37,722 nt of DNA, taken from the NCBI GenBank assembly GCA_016204465.1, contig JACQKQ010000014.1:1-37722 (forward strand). Reading direction: 5' to 3'. Shown one piece after another: positions 3,352 to 16,788 of this stretch. The DNA comes from Candidatus Levyibacteriota bacterium (GTDB taxonomy: Bacteria; Patescibacteriota; Microgenomatia; Levybacterales; UBA12049). The notes below the pieces were generated by a model. The model ran no database searches. It was not told where the DNA came from and worked only from the letters and a program-made list of their open reading frames with translations. How positions within the stretch are numbered: position 1 is the first letter of the stretch; the number at the start of each line of letters is the position of its first letter. The position numbers and the translations under genes are program-made.

Positions 3352-4590
3352 ATGTTGAAAGATGTAAGCGTTGCCCCACGAGATTTTCAGGAATATCGTG
3401 TTGTGATTGATTACAAACTTTTTGAAGAAATTATCTATCTTTCAGGTCAATTACGTAATAAACGTATTCTATATATAAACTCTAACCAAAACAGGGGCGG
3501 CGTATACGAACACCTTACAAGTTTAATTCCTCTTTTACAGAACTTAGGGATTAAGGCTGAGTGGAAAGCAATTTCAGAAGTCCCGCCAGACTTTTACGAA
3601 GCAACAAAGAGAATTTATAACTGTATCCAAGGTGCAGAATATGTCTTAACACCCAAACAATGGAAAATCTATGAAAACTTTAACAAAGGTATAGCAAAGG
3701 AAGTAGAAGGTGATAATTGGGATTTTGTTTTAGTACAAGATCATCAGATGCTTGGTGCATTATCACAGGTAAGAAATAAGAGGAGGATGAAGTGGATTTG
3801 GCAATCACATTCTGAAACGCATAATCCAGATGAGCGCTTTGTCAATCATCTCATAAAATATCTACAGCCATACGATGGCGTTATTTTATACCTTCCTGAG
3901 TATGTGTTTAAAAATTTTCATCCAAAAAAACTTGTTACCTCAACGATTGCGATAGACCCTATAAGCCCAAAAAATGTGCCCATGAACAAACTTAAAGCAA
4001 GACGGGTAATCGAACAATTTGGCATAAATTCTCATAGACCATTTATAACCCAGATCGCTAGAATAGACTCTTGGAAAGATTTTCCCGGGGTTGTTGATGC
4101 GTGGTTAATTGCAAAGAAAAAAATCCCTGGATTGCAGTTGGCAATAGTTGGAGTAGTGAGTTTAAATAATATCCACGCAAAAGAAATTATTGATCAAATC
4201 CTTGAGAAAACAAAAGGAGAAGAAGGCATATATCTACTTATCAACACAGTTGAGAGAGAAAATATTAAGGCATTTCAAACAGCAAGTAATATCATAGTGC
4301 AAAAATCTCTCCGTGAAGGGTTCGGTTTAGCTGTCTCTGAGGCTCTTTGGTCTGGCACACCCGTAATTGGCGGCAATGTGGGTGGAATAAAAGTTCAAAT
4401 TATTAACGGTAAGTGCGGTTATTTAGTAGATTCTATTGAAGAATGTGCGCAGCGAATAATAGAATTAATACAAAACCCAAGCAGGGCTAGAGCAATGGGT
4501 AAATTCGGACGGGAGTACGTACGTAAACAATTCCTTCTGCCGAGGCTTATCCGTGATGAGATGCAGTTAATGATTGACTTGTTAGACTAG
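3352..4590 (+). CDS. GT4 glycosyltransferase, resembling trehalose glycosyltransferring synthase (TreT)
   Basis: NRGGVYEHLTSLIPLLQNLGI, FVLVQDHQM, IWQSHSETHNPDERFVNHLIKYLQPYDGVILYLPEYVF, AIDPISPKN, REGFGLAVSEALWSGTPVIGGNVGGI. Confidence 0.8.
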   Translation: MLKDVSVAPRDFQEYRVVIDYKLFEEIIYLSGQLRNKRILYINSNQNRGGVYEHLTSLIPLLQNLGIKAEWKAISEVPPDFYEATKRIYNCIQGAEYVLTPKQWKIYENFNKGIAKEVEGDNWDFVLVQDHQMLGALSQVRNKRRMKWIWQSHSETHNPDERFVNHLIKYLQPYDGVILYLPEYVFKNFHPKKLVTSTIAIDPISPKNVPMNKLKARRVIEQFGINSHRPFITQIARIDSWKDFPGVVDAWLIAKKKIPGLQLAIVGVVSLNNIHAKEIIDQILEKTKGEEGIYLLINTVERENIKAFQTASNIIVQKSLREGFGLAVSEALWSGTPVIGGNVGGIKVQIINGKCGYLVDSIEECAQRIIELIQNPSRARAMGKFGREYVRKQFLLPRLIRDEMQLMIDLLD

Positions 4591-13197: not shown

Positions 13198-16100
13198 ATG
13201 AAATTAGACGGTATTAGGCAAAAAGTATTTATAGATAGGTATTCCTTAAAAGACAAGGAGGGTAATCCTACAGAAAAGACACCAAATGAAATGTGGCTAA
13301 GGGTTTCCCATGGTATAGCAAAGCAGGAAAAACCAAAGAACCGTAAAAAGTGGGAGAAACGATTTTATGATGTGATGGCTGACTTTAAGTTTGTTCCTGG
13401 CGGCAGGATACTTTCGGGCGCTGGCACAGGGTATCAGGTTACCTACTACAACTGTTTTGTCATTCCTTCCCCCAAGGACTCGCGGGAAGGAATTCTAGAA
13501 TCACTTAAGCAGTTGGTGGAGATTCAATCCCGATCAGGCGGGGTTGGGCTTAACCTCTCGTCGCTTCGCCCACGAGGGGCACGAGTCAGGAAGGTTAACG
13601 GTACTTCCTCGGGGCCTGTCACGTGGGCAGGGCTTTTCTCCTACGCGACACACGACGTTGTACAGCAGGGCGGGACAAGGCGAGGCGCAACCATGCTTAT
13701 GCTGTGGGATTGGCATCCGGATGTTGAAGAGTTTATCACTGTTAAGCAAGATCTTTCCAAAATAAACGGCGCAAATCTCTCCGTTTGTATTTCTGACGCA
13801 TTCATGGAGGCAGTAAAAAAAGATAAGGACTGGGATTTGGTGTATCCTGATTTAGACGACCCACGCTACGACACGCACTGGAACGGCGAGATTGACGAGT
13901 GGAAAAAGCTTGGCGGCCGCGTTAAGGTGCACAAAACAGTGAAAGCGCGCTTTCTGTGGGATATTATCTGCACTGCAGCATGGCGCTCTGCCGAGCCGGG
14001 GCTGCACTTTTTAGAGCGCTCCAATAAACGCAGTAACACATTTTGGTTTGAGAAGCTAATCGCAACCAATCCCTGTGTTACAGGAGATACGTTGGTGGCA
14101 ACAGCGAATGGATGGAAACGCGCTGATGAAGTTACAGTAGGTGATCGAGTAGGTACTGTGCTAGGAAGCGGTGTAGTAGACGAGGTTGAAGTATACGAAA
14201 AACGTCCGGTTTTTCGCGTCAAGCTTTCTGACGGCGCAGAGCTTCGGGTAACTGCAGCACATCAGTTTCATGCTATTAAGCATGCTAATCGAGCAAAAAA
14301 TTCTGCAAATAAACGATTTTCAGAACTTGCCCTTGCAGAGCTTGAGAGTGGAGATCTCGTACGTATCGCCAAAGCGCCAATGCCACAGAATCCTGTTTCT
14401 GATTTACCAAGTGGCTGGAGTAATAAAGAGTATGGGTTCTTTCTTGGCATGTTGTTAGGGGATGGATGCATTAGCCCCAAAACACTCAATCGAAATGTGG
14501 TGAAAGTTGCGGTGAACACCAACGAAACCGAGTGGAATGCCTTAGTAAGAACTACTTTAGAAAAAACAGGTGTCGTTAGGCTTGACGCTTCAGCTGGAGG
14601 ATACTCTGCTAATTTCACTGCGCAATCAGCACATGGCGCGGCGCTTTTGGTAAGGCAATCATTGCTGACGCCAGCGTATTCCTTTGAGAAGAAAATTCCT
14701 CTTGAGTATCAAAATTCAAATAAAGAATTTCTGGCAGGACTTTTAGATGGATTGTTCAGCACAGATGGTAATATTGATCTTAGCAGTAACCATCCTTTCT
14801 TGCGATTTAAGACAACGAGTAAGAGACTTGCTTTGGATATTAGAAGAATTCTTCTCTGTTTTGGTATACACGGTCGGATTGCAACAATTAAGAAGGTCGC
14901 AAATGGAAATATTAACGGCCGTGTTATCGTTTCGAAGCATCAGCAGTATGAAGTAATTATTTCTGGTGCTGGCATGAAAGTTTTTGCAGAGCAGATTGGG
15001 CTTTCTCATCCAGATAAACAAAAGAGGCTGCAAATTGCCCAGCAAGAATTCGCGCTTACCGGCAACACGTGGCTTGCTCGGATTGTTTCAATCGAATCTG
15101 ATGGAATAGAAACAGTGTATGATTTGCACGAGCCAGCTTCAGACACCTGGATTACGGAAGGCGTTGTTTCTCGTGGGTGTGGCGAGCAACCCCTCGGGGC
15201 TTGGGCGGTTTGCAATTTAGGGGCGATGAACTTGGCCGCATACGTAAAAAGCGAGCAGTTTGATTTCGAAAGTTTTGGCCGCGATGTTCGCACAGCCATT
15301 CGCTTTTTGGACAACGTTATTGACGACACGTACTATTTTTTTGACGAGAACGAAAAATGCGCTAAAGATATTCGCCGCACAGGTCTTGGCATTATGGGCA
15401 TTGCCGATGCGCTCATTAAAATGAAATTGCGTTACGGCTCCGAGGAGTCGCTGCCGGTTGTCATAAAGATTTTTGCAACCCTTCGGGATAATGCTTATGA
15501 AGCATCTTCGGATTTAGCCAAAGAAAAGGGATCATTCCCCAAGTTCAACAAAAAAAAGTATTTGCAAGGCTACCACATTCAAAACTTACCAAAATCAATT
15601 CGAACAAAGATTACAAAACAGGGTATTCGAAACGCAGTCCTACTTACTATTGCGCCAACTGGTACAACCAGTCTCTTGTCCGGTGTATCATCGGGCATTG
15701 AGCCAGTCTATGAATTCACGTTTATTCGCCGCGATCGAACCGGCGAGCACATCTTAAACCACCCGTTGTTGGAAGCGTGGAAGAAGGATCACCTAAACGA
15801 AGAAAAGCCAGACTATTTTGTCTCGGCAAATGATTTAACGCCTTTAGAGCACACAACGGTTCAGGCAATTGCCCAAGAGTATATTGACTCGTCCATTTCA
15901 AAAACTGTCAACGCGCCAAACTCGCACACTGTTGAAGATGTAAAGGTGCTCTATATGGCAGCATACGATATGGGACTTAAAGGCATTACCTATATGCGGG
16001 ATGGTTCTCGTGCTGGCGTGCTGACACGGGTTGAAGAGAAAAAGCAAGAAAAGACGGTTCAGAAGCCTTTGGTGTTTGGCGAGCCGGTGATTCCGCGGCC

Positions 16101-16788
16101 AACAATGGTCGAGGGTGTTACATACCAAACCGAAACACCGGTTGGGACTGCGTTTGTCACCATAAATCACGATGAGCACAAAAACCCCTTTGAGCTGTTT
16201 ATTACCATTGGCAAGTCCGGTTCCGATGTTGCGGCAATGGCCGAGGCTTTGGGTAAAATGATTTCCCTTAATCTGCGGCTTTCTGCTGCAATTGCGCCGC
16301 GGGAGAAGGTGCGCGAGATTATTGCAAGACTTGCTGGCATTGGAGGAGCAAGAAGCATTGGGTTTGGAAAAGAAAAGATTCGTTCCTTGCCTGATGCAGT
16401 GGCAAAAGTCTTGGCGCGGCAGTATGGTTTTACCGTGAATGGGAGAGTAGAGGATAAGACGGGGTTTGTCATGGGCAACGGGCAGGGTAATGGTTCTGCA
16501 AAGCAGAACTTGGGTTCTGCAAGGCAGAATTTTGGCTCGGGAAATGAGCATTTAGGTTCTGCTCTGCAGAATGGCGTTTCGCAACCGCAGGCGGAAAACA
16601 AAGGGACAGTAGTCTTGCAACAGCTTGCACTCGATGGATCTGCTTCTGCCGTTTCTGCGCCAAAAGCCGCAATGCATCCGGTTGCCTCAACACACTTGTT
16701 TGACATTTGCCCCGAGTGCGGAACAGGCAGTTTTGCCTACGAAGAAGGTTGCAAAAAATGCTATAGCTGTGGATACAGCGAGTGTTAG
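13198..16788 (+). CDS. nrdJ: Adenosylcobalamin-dependent (class II) ribonucleotide reductase, intein-interrupted
   Basis: SD aaaggagcattt; PGGRILSGAGTGYQVTYYNCFV, RSGGVGLNLSSLRPRGA, ATNP|intein|CGEQPLGAWAVCNLGAMNL, APTGTTSLLSGVSSGIEPV; C-terminal zinc ribbon CPECGTGSF...CKKCYSCGYSEC. Confidence 0.95.
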   Translation: MKLDGIRQKVFIDRYSLKDKEGNPTEKTPNEMWLRVSHGIAKQEKPKNRKKWEKRFYDVMADFKFVPGGRILSGAGTGYQVTYYNCFVIPSPKDSREGILESLKQLVEIQSRSGGVGLNLSSLRPRGARVRKVNGTSSGPVTWAGLFSYATHDVVQQGGTRRGATMLMLWDWHPDVEEFITVKQDLSKINGANLSVCISDAFMEAVKKDKDWDLVYPDLDDPRYDTHWNGEIDEWKKLGGRVKVHKTVKARFLWDIICTAAWRSAEPGLHFLERSNKRSNTFWFEKLIATNPCVTGDTLVATANGWKRADEVTVGDRVGTVLGSGVVDEVEVYEKRPVFRVKLSDGAELRVTAAHQFHAIKHANRAKNSANKRFSELALAELESGDLVRIAKAPMPQNPVSDLPSGWSNKEYGFFLGMLLGDGCISPKTLNRNVVKVAVNTNETEWNALVRTTLEKTGVVRLDASAGGYSANFTAQSAHGAALLVRQSLLTPAYSFEKKIPLEYQNSNKEFLAGLLDGLFSTDGNIDLSSNHPFLRFKTTSKRLALDIRRILLCFGIHGRIATIKKVANGNINGRVIVSKHQQYEVIISGAGMKVFAEQIGLSHPDKQKRLQIAQQEFALTGNTWLARIVSIESDGIETVYDLHEPASDTWITEGVVSRGCGEQPLGAWAVCNLGAMNLAAYVKSEQFDFESFGRDVRTAIRFLDNVIDDTYYFFDENEKCAKDIRRTGLGIMGIADALIKMKLRYGSEESLPVVIKIFATLRDNAYEASSDLAKEKGSFPKFNKKKYLQGYHIQNLPKSIRTKITKQGIRNAVLLTIAPTGTTSLLSGVSSGIEPVYEFTFIRRDRTGEHILNHPLLEAWKKDHLNEEKPDYFVSANDLTPLEHTTVQAIAQEYIDSSISKTVNAPNSHTVEDVKVLYMAAYDMGLKGITYMRDGSRAGVLTRVEEKKQEKTVQKPLVFGEPVIPRPTMVEGVTYQTETPVGTAFVTINHDEHKNPFELFITIGKSGSDVAAMAEALGKMISLNLRLSAAIAPREKVREIIARLAGIGGARSIGFGKEKIRSLPDAVAKVLARQYGFTVNGRVEDKTGFVMGNGQGNGSAKQNLGSARQNFGSGNEHLGSALQNGVSQPQAENKGTVVLQQLALDGSASAVSAPKAAMHPVASTHLFDICPECGTGSFAYEEGCKKCYSCGYSEC
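14074..15177 (+). mobile_element. Intein with LAGLIDADG homing endonuclease in NrdJ (368 aa)
   Basis: Block A CVTGDTLVATANGWKRADEVTVGDRV, block B GAELRVTAAHQF, endonuclease LGMLLGDGCIS and LLDGLFSTDGNI, block F GIETVYDLHEP, end VVSRG|CGEQPL. Confidence 0.92.
16494..16571. repeat. Three TTCTGC-N3-GCAGAA palindromes in the nrdJ linker
   Basis: 16494-16508, 16515-16529 and 16557-16571; same architecture at 33387-33401. Confidence 0.85.

Follow-up and report, generated by a model that had tools for sequence, protein, structure and literature searches.

A conserved clade of glycine-ended inteins in class II ribonucleotide reductases of Patescibacteria and viral contigs: possibly a fourth intein class

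The window considered here is the whole stretch of 37,722 nucleotides that makes up positions 1 to 37,722 (forward strand) of contig JACQKQ010000014.1 in the assembly GCA_016204465.1 of a Candidatus Levyibacteriota bacterium. It carries a gene for a ribonucleotide reductase (RNR) that is interrupted by an intein with glycine as its last residue, and the features of this locus are as follows.

13198-16788, plus strand: nrdJ, open reading frame (ORF) of a class II (adenosylcobalamin-dependent) RNR (ORF call, NCBIfam, Pfam, alignment with 1xje)
14074-15177, plus strand: Gly-ended intein of 368 aa, HINT splicing domain and LAGLIDADG endonuclease (translation, profiles, AF2 model)
14074-14076, plus strand: Cys1, N-terminal nucleophile of the intein, kept (18/18 in the Gly clade)
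14251-14262, plus strand: block B TAAH (Thr B:7, His B:10), kept (T..H in 18/18)
14437-14466, plus strand: first LAGLIDADG motif, FFLGMLLGDG (sequence)
14728-14769, plus strand: second LAGLIDADG motif, FLAGLLDGLFSTDG (Pfam LAGLIDADG_3, 8.4e-17)
15121-15123, plus strand: Asp F:4, kept (18/18 in the Gly clade)
15142-15144, plus strand: Asp at the position of His F:13 (18/18 in the Gly clade, alignment)
15148-15150, plus strand: Trp nine residues after Asp F:4 (18/18, and shared with the LD sister clade)
15172-15177, plus strand: Arg-Gly terminus replacing His-Asn (translation, family comparison)
15178-15180, plus strand: Cys+1, C-extein nucleophile and expected RNR radical-site cysteine of NPCGE (1xje alignment)

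The nrdJ frame codes for 1196 aa with the intein and 828 aa without it, and its product matches the NCBIfam profile NrdJ_Z (TIGR02504) at 568 bits along with Pfam PF02867, PF00317 and TSCPD. The intein is inserted in frame at ATNP/CGEQPL, and its excision in silico yields NPCGEQPL, which aligns across the junction with the NrdJ of T. maritima (1xje; ATNPCGE and STNPCGE, respectively), confirming a preliminary description of the window that had placed the insertion inside the NPCGEQ motif. Cys+1 is presumably the radical-site cysteine of the RNR, and the Asn and Glu of the motif are likewise taken to be catalytic, so the enzyme is expected to be dead without exact removal of the intein. Further downstream, a short degenerate repeat (GSAKQNLGSARQNFGSGNEHLGSALQNG, 16492-16575) lies in the linker between the TSCPD domain and a C-terminal zinc-ribbon-like segment (CPEC...CKKCYSCG).

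By fold, insertion and motifs, the insert at 14074-15177 is an intein: it lies in frame, its removal restores a conserved host motif, and a HINT fold with block A, B and F motifs is recovered by AF2, Foldseek and TIGR01445. The AF2 model (pLDDT 81.6, pTM 0.84) has the VMA intein 7qsu as its best PDB match, and the profile scores are 26.5 bits against TIGR01445, above that profile's cut-off, and 29.3 bits against PF14890, under the cut-off of 35.8. The translation runs from CVTGDTLV to WITEGVVSRG, and the next codon is that of Cys+1 (tct cgt ggg / tgt ggc gag). The presence of Cys1, block B T..H (TAAH) and two LAGLIDADG motifs (GMLLGDG and GLLDGLFSTDG), as claimed in the preliminary description, is evident in this translation, as is the Arg-Gly end without His-Asn, which 17 further non-redundant inteins also bear out; of the extent given there, 14074-15180, only the end needs correction, since it takes in the Cys+1 codon. 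A second intein (L001, contig C15 near 19441) occurs in the same genome, with a normal His-Asn end, in a protein resembling TPP-dependent 2-oxoacid oxidoreductases (PG/CVVPNT...AILHN/CGDFG).

Counted after removal of near-duplicates, at least 18 non-redundant Gly-ended inteins occupy this site in the ultra-small Patescibacteria and in IMG/VR viral contigs, 16 ending in RG and two in QG. The same-site intein is found in four other Patescibacteria genomes at 66-75% identity, with an SRG end in all four; one further relative, at 48% identity, came from the phylum sample (L007), another member from the class sample (L022), and the viral-contig members are L047, L048, L049, L055, L056, L058, L060, L065, L068, L070 and L072. 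Members of the clade belong to at least two classes of Patescibacteria or sit on a diverse range of viral contigs. The remaining inteins sampled at this site have Asn (n=35), Gln (n=14) or Asp (n=4) as their last residue, segments L078, L087, L088, L117 and L132, with other ends, having been left out as apparent pattern artefacts. The codons of the Arg-Gly end vary (CGT, CGA, CGC, CGG, AGA and AGG for Arg; GGA, GGC, GGG and GGT for Gly) with the amino acids fixed, and because the end is conserved in 17 further inteins with differing codons, chance or sequencing error is excluded. Among cultured phages and plasmids there was no close relative among the matches listed (all below 60% identity), and the one end inspected there, that of the Moorella phage MTATph1 intein, is HN. 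A narrow degenerate DNA scan of viral contigs for Gly-ended inteins at other sites returned nothing new among eight hits, six of them RNR inteins already in the set and two unrelated phage proteins. One member, L058, is a mini-intein of 149 aa without endonuclease in an RNR ORF of 869 aa (viral contig, approximately 4013-4459); it keeps every signature residue of the clade, and its model (pLDDT 81.6) matches gp41-1 at TM 0.88-0.90, normalised by target (Foldseek).

An alignment of same-site NrdJ inteins had been suggested as a means of seeing whether the SRG end marks a clade, and the Gly-ended members do form one. With the last two columns removed, the 18 are monophyletic in FastTree at supports of 0.998 and 0.985, but UFBoot for the clade alone reaches only 69 in the full tree and 91 in that of the splicing domain. 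Its sister is a group of three LD-ended inteins, with UFBoot 100 in both trees. These three (L023, L024 and L025) are same-site NrdJ inteins with a Leu-Asp end in which F:13 is occupied by Leu and +9 by Trp, and represent natural Asp-ended inteins without either His. The carboxylate is at G:7 in the LD clade, where F:13 is Leu, and at F:13 in the Gly clade, where G:7 is Gly; a change from Asp to Gly needs one base change. This distribution suggests an Asp-ended ancestor with known chemistry, in which a carboxylate may have arisen at F:13 and the terminal one may then have become dispensable, an order of events that we infer. A viral-contig intein at the same site (L074) has an Arg-Asp end (GNGISTRD/CGEV) and Lys at F:13; it was considered as a close relative of the Gly clade and rejected, as its placement in the tree is unstable.

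All 18 Gly-ended inteins retain Cys1, Thr and His of block B, and Asp F:4; judged by these residues, the N-terminal side of the active site is of the class 1 type. Two departures beyond the one noticed at the outset were found in block F, namely His to Asp at F:13, the residue +7 from Asp F:4, and Phe to Trp at the aromatic position +9, both invariant (18/18). At the end itself, Arg or Gln replaces His at the penultimate G:6, followed by Gly G:7 and Cys+1 in every member. Asp at F:13 is absent from all other same-site inteins in which the position is readable; block F of the LD clade was read from the alignment, and pattern reading failed for some Gln- or Asn-ended sequences. Roles assisting step 3 have been given to His F:13 and His G:6 (review, PMC4031507), and in gp41-1 the residues lying at most 5 Å from the terminal Asn125 include Asp107, His114, Phe116 and His124 (PMC12245125). 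By the Asp+7/+9 spacing, these four would correspond to F:4, +7, +9 and G:6, respectively, and the changes in the Gly clade appear concentrated around the C-terminal bond, since the changed positions match gp41-1 residues near the terminal Asn.

Set against the known kinds of intein, the Gly clade departs from the definition of each. Class 1 inteins, whose definition includes a cyclisable C-terminal residue (Asn, Gln, Asp or Glu; PMC4031507), have nucleophiles at positions 1 and +1, and these are Cys and Cys in 18/18; the last residue, however, is Gly in 18/18, and His F:13 and His G:6, which are common in class 1 and not strictly required, are absent, with Asp and Arg or Gln instead. The HINT fold, Cys1, block B T..H, Asp F:4 and Cys+1 are shared with class 1, including the canonical NrdJ inteins L026, L029 and L030, which also share the NP/C site and a LAGLIDADG endonuclease; the differences are a terminal Gly rather than Asn, Gln or Asp, Asp rather than His at F:13, Trp rather than Phe at +9, and a penultimate Arg or Gln rather than His or Ser. 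Class 2 (Ala1 and direct attack by Cys+1), class 3 (no Cys1 or Ser1, Cys F:4 and a WCT motif) and type B BILs (no +1 nucleophile) were rejected on the basis of Cys1, Asp F:4 and Cys+1, each present in 18/18. Atypical cyclisable ends are known, with Gln in the CIV RNR and the Pab and Mma Pol II inteins, and Asp in others (PMC4031507); these share with the Gly clade a natural departure from terminal Asn, and the Asp-ended LD clade is its sister, but Gln and Asp are able to cyclise and Gly is not. Class 3 (WCT) offers a likeness in that a catalytic residue, putatively so in the Gly clade, has moved to block F and become fixed in a monophyletic, phage-associated group; there, however, it is the N-terminal nucleophile that moved, to Cys F:4, with Asn cyclisation retained, whereas the Gly clade retains Cys1 and has its C-terminal step altered. 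Type B BIL domains likewise have no His-Asn end, but in BILs there is no +1 nucleophile and type B members cleave without splicing, whereas inteins of the Gly clade have Cys+1 and interrupt NPCGE exactly and in frame.

In the inteins that have been studied, mutation of the terminal Asn abolishes C-terminal cleavage (PMC4031507). That the Gly-ended inteins splice at all is nevertheless quite probable, on account of purifying selection, the member without endonuclease, and an intein-bearing gene that is the sole detected large-subunit RNR in several genomes; the Gly-ended terminus looks like a working alternative design and not a broken copy. The splicing-domain dN/dS is 0.08-0.19 among five relatives, several dS values being near or at saturation, and is similar to the endonuclease value wherever the latter is computable. 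As its endonuclease is absent, L058 could not persist by its own homing. In G000, G120, G556 and G648 the intein-bearing nrdJ is the only large-subunit RNR found, and a search of these four for a class III RNR (NrdD) found none, although a second RNR could be missed because most genomes are MAGs and that of the window is 88.8% complete. The argument fails for G596 and G618, in both of which further RNR genes are present; on contigs C17 and C29 of the small G618 genome, several RNR large-subunit ORFs occur, at least two of them with inteins. The RNR chains of L003, L005 and L047 each carry a Gly-ended intein and, at another site, an HN-ended one, and appear to be splicing-matured in view of the latter. 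Of the three outcomes envisaged in the preliminary description, non-canonical splicing is favoured by the conservation of the family, the purifying selection, the invariant replacements, L058 and the absence of a detected second RNR in several genomes; an inactive allele is strongly argued against, and cleavage only is unlikely, since the intein breaks up the N-P-C-G-E motif of the active site.

The sequences themselves show a conserved clade, its concerted replacements and an RNR motif that is restored on excision; splicing and the chemistry of its third step are inferred. Glycine has no side chain and so cannot cyclise. The model tentatively preferred, at somewhat short of an even chance, is that of an active, conserved subfamily in which splicing does without cyclising the last residue and proceeds by way of a carboxylate relocated to block F. 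In this model, a thioester would form at Cys1 in the manner of class 1, aided by Thr B:7, His B:10 and Asp F:4, and the N-extein would pass to Cys+1 to give a branched thioester. The Gly-Cys+1 bond would then be cut by Asp F:13, possibly paired with Asp F:4, acting either as a nucleophile (through an acyl anhydride) or as a base for a water molecule that would occupy the space vacated by the absent terminal side chain; the penultimate Arg or Gln may replace His G:6 in stabilising the transition state, and an S-to-N shift would restore NP-CGEQ. The role of Asp F:13 as the essential step-3 catalyst is put forward with slightly more reserve than the model as a whole. We know of no intein in which Asp F:13 assists an anhydride or hydrolytic step. 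The other His of block B (HQFH) was rejected as a substitute catalyst, as it varies, L058 having Tyr and L060 Gln in its place.

The main alternative, unlikely though deserving of weight, replaces the carboxylate with two N-to-S acyl shifts: Cys+1 would attack the Gly carbonyl to give a Gly-thioester and a free Cys+1 alpha-amine, which would in turn attack the N-extein thioester at Cys1, and the intein would leave by thioester hydrolysis or as a circular protein through an acyl swap onto Cys1. In ordinary peptides, Gly or His before Cys is reported to permit an N-S shift that yields a thioester, and such a shift at a terminal Cys has been exploited for intramolecular cyclisation (PMC11284063), while for BIL-A domains a ligation via a free C-terminal amine has been proposed (PMC4031507). 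All 18 members have Gly G:7 and Cys+1. However, the peptide chemistry was reported under acidic conditions (PMC11284063), Cys+1 is not diagnostic since it is identical in canonical same-site inteins, and the invariant Asp F:13 is not explained by a shift alone. A slightly less likely scenario leaves the intein only the N-terminal chemistry, the Gly-Cys bond being cut by a host protease or RNR-associated factor in a manner coupled to ligation. The loss of both His and Asn would fit a lost self-cleavage, and RG or QG ends could be a recognition site, but such a factor would have to be widely available given the range of the clade, and the invariant Asp F:13 and Trp sit in the intein's own pocket. 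It is more improbable still that the inteins are inactive or cleavage-only, leaving non-functional RNR genes or two-chain enzymes: residues that are normally essential have been lost, but the low dN/dS, replacements invariant in 18 lineages and intact RNR frames where no other RNR was found speak against this, and an insertion inside NPCGE would leave an unspliced or two-chain enzyme without a correct active-site loop. Lastly, sequence error or decay concealing His-Asn, and a true junction elsewhere with a usable Asn, Asp or Gln, the first and last of which the preliminary description had raised, are very improbable and were rejected, since 18 independent sequences keep Gly with varied codons and low dN/dS, the frame is continuous in 18/18 and conceals no frameshift, and the cyclisable E, N or D that precedes the conserved Gly of TEG, TNG or TDG in 17/18 is Cys in L072, would be followed by Gly with no +1 nucleophile, and would leave extra residues in the RNR active site, no cyclisable residue thus standing at a usable position across all members.

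Inteins of classes 1, 2 and 3 begin splicing in different ways, but all of them end it by cyclising the terminal residue (PMC4031507, PMC7664689). Gly-ended inteins were not found described in the literature searched, most subscription journals lying outside its scope. If splicing is shown, the Gly clade is possibly a fourth intein class; that it forms a mechanistic class without terminal cyclisation, whether the bond is cleaved by Asp F:13 or through an N-to-S shift at Cys+1, possibly with a circular intein, appears moderately probable. Several simultaneous compensating changes have been argued to be improbable (PMC7664689), and the series HN, LD and RG at one site provides a testable route to multiple compensating changes. 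If the proposal is true, protein engineers would gain an intein that leaves Gly rather than Asn at its own end, the final step of splicing would prove to be replaceable as well, and the HINT fold would acquire a second means of cleaving the C-terminal bond.
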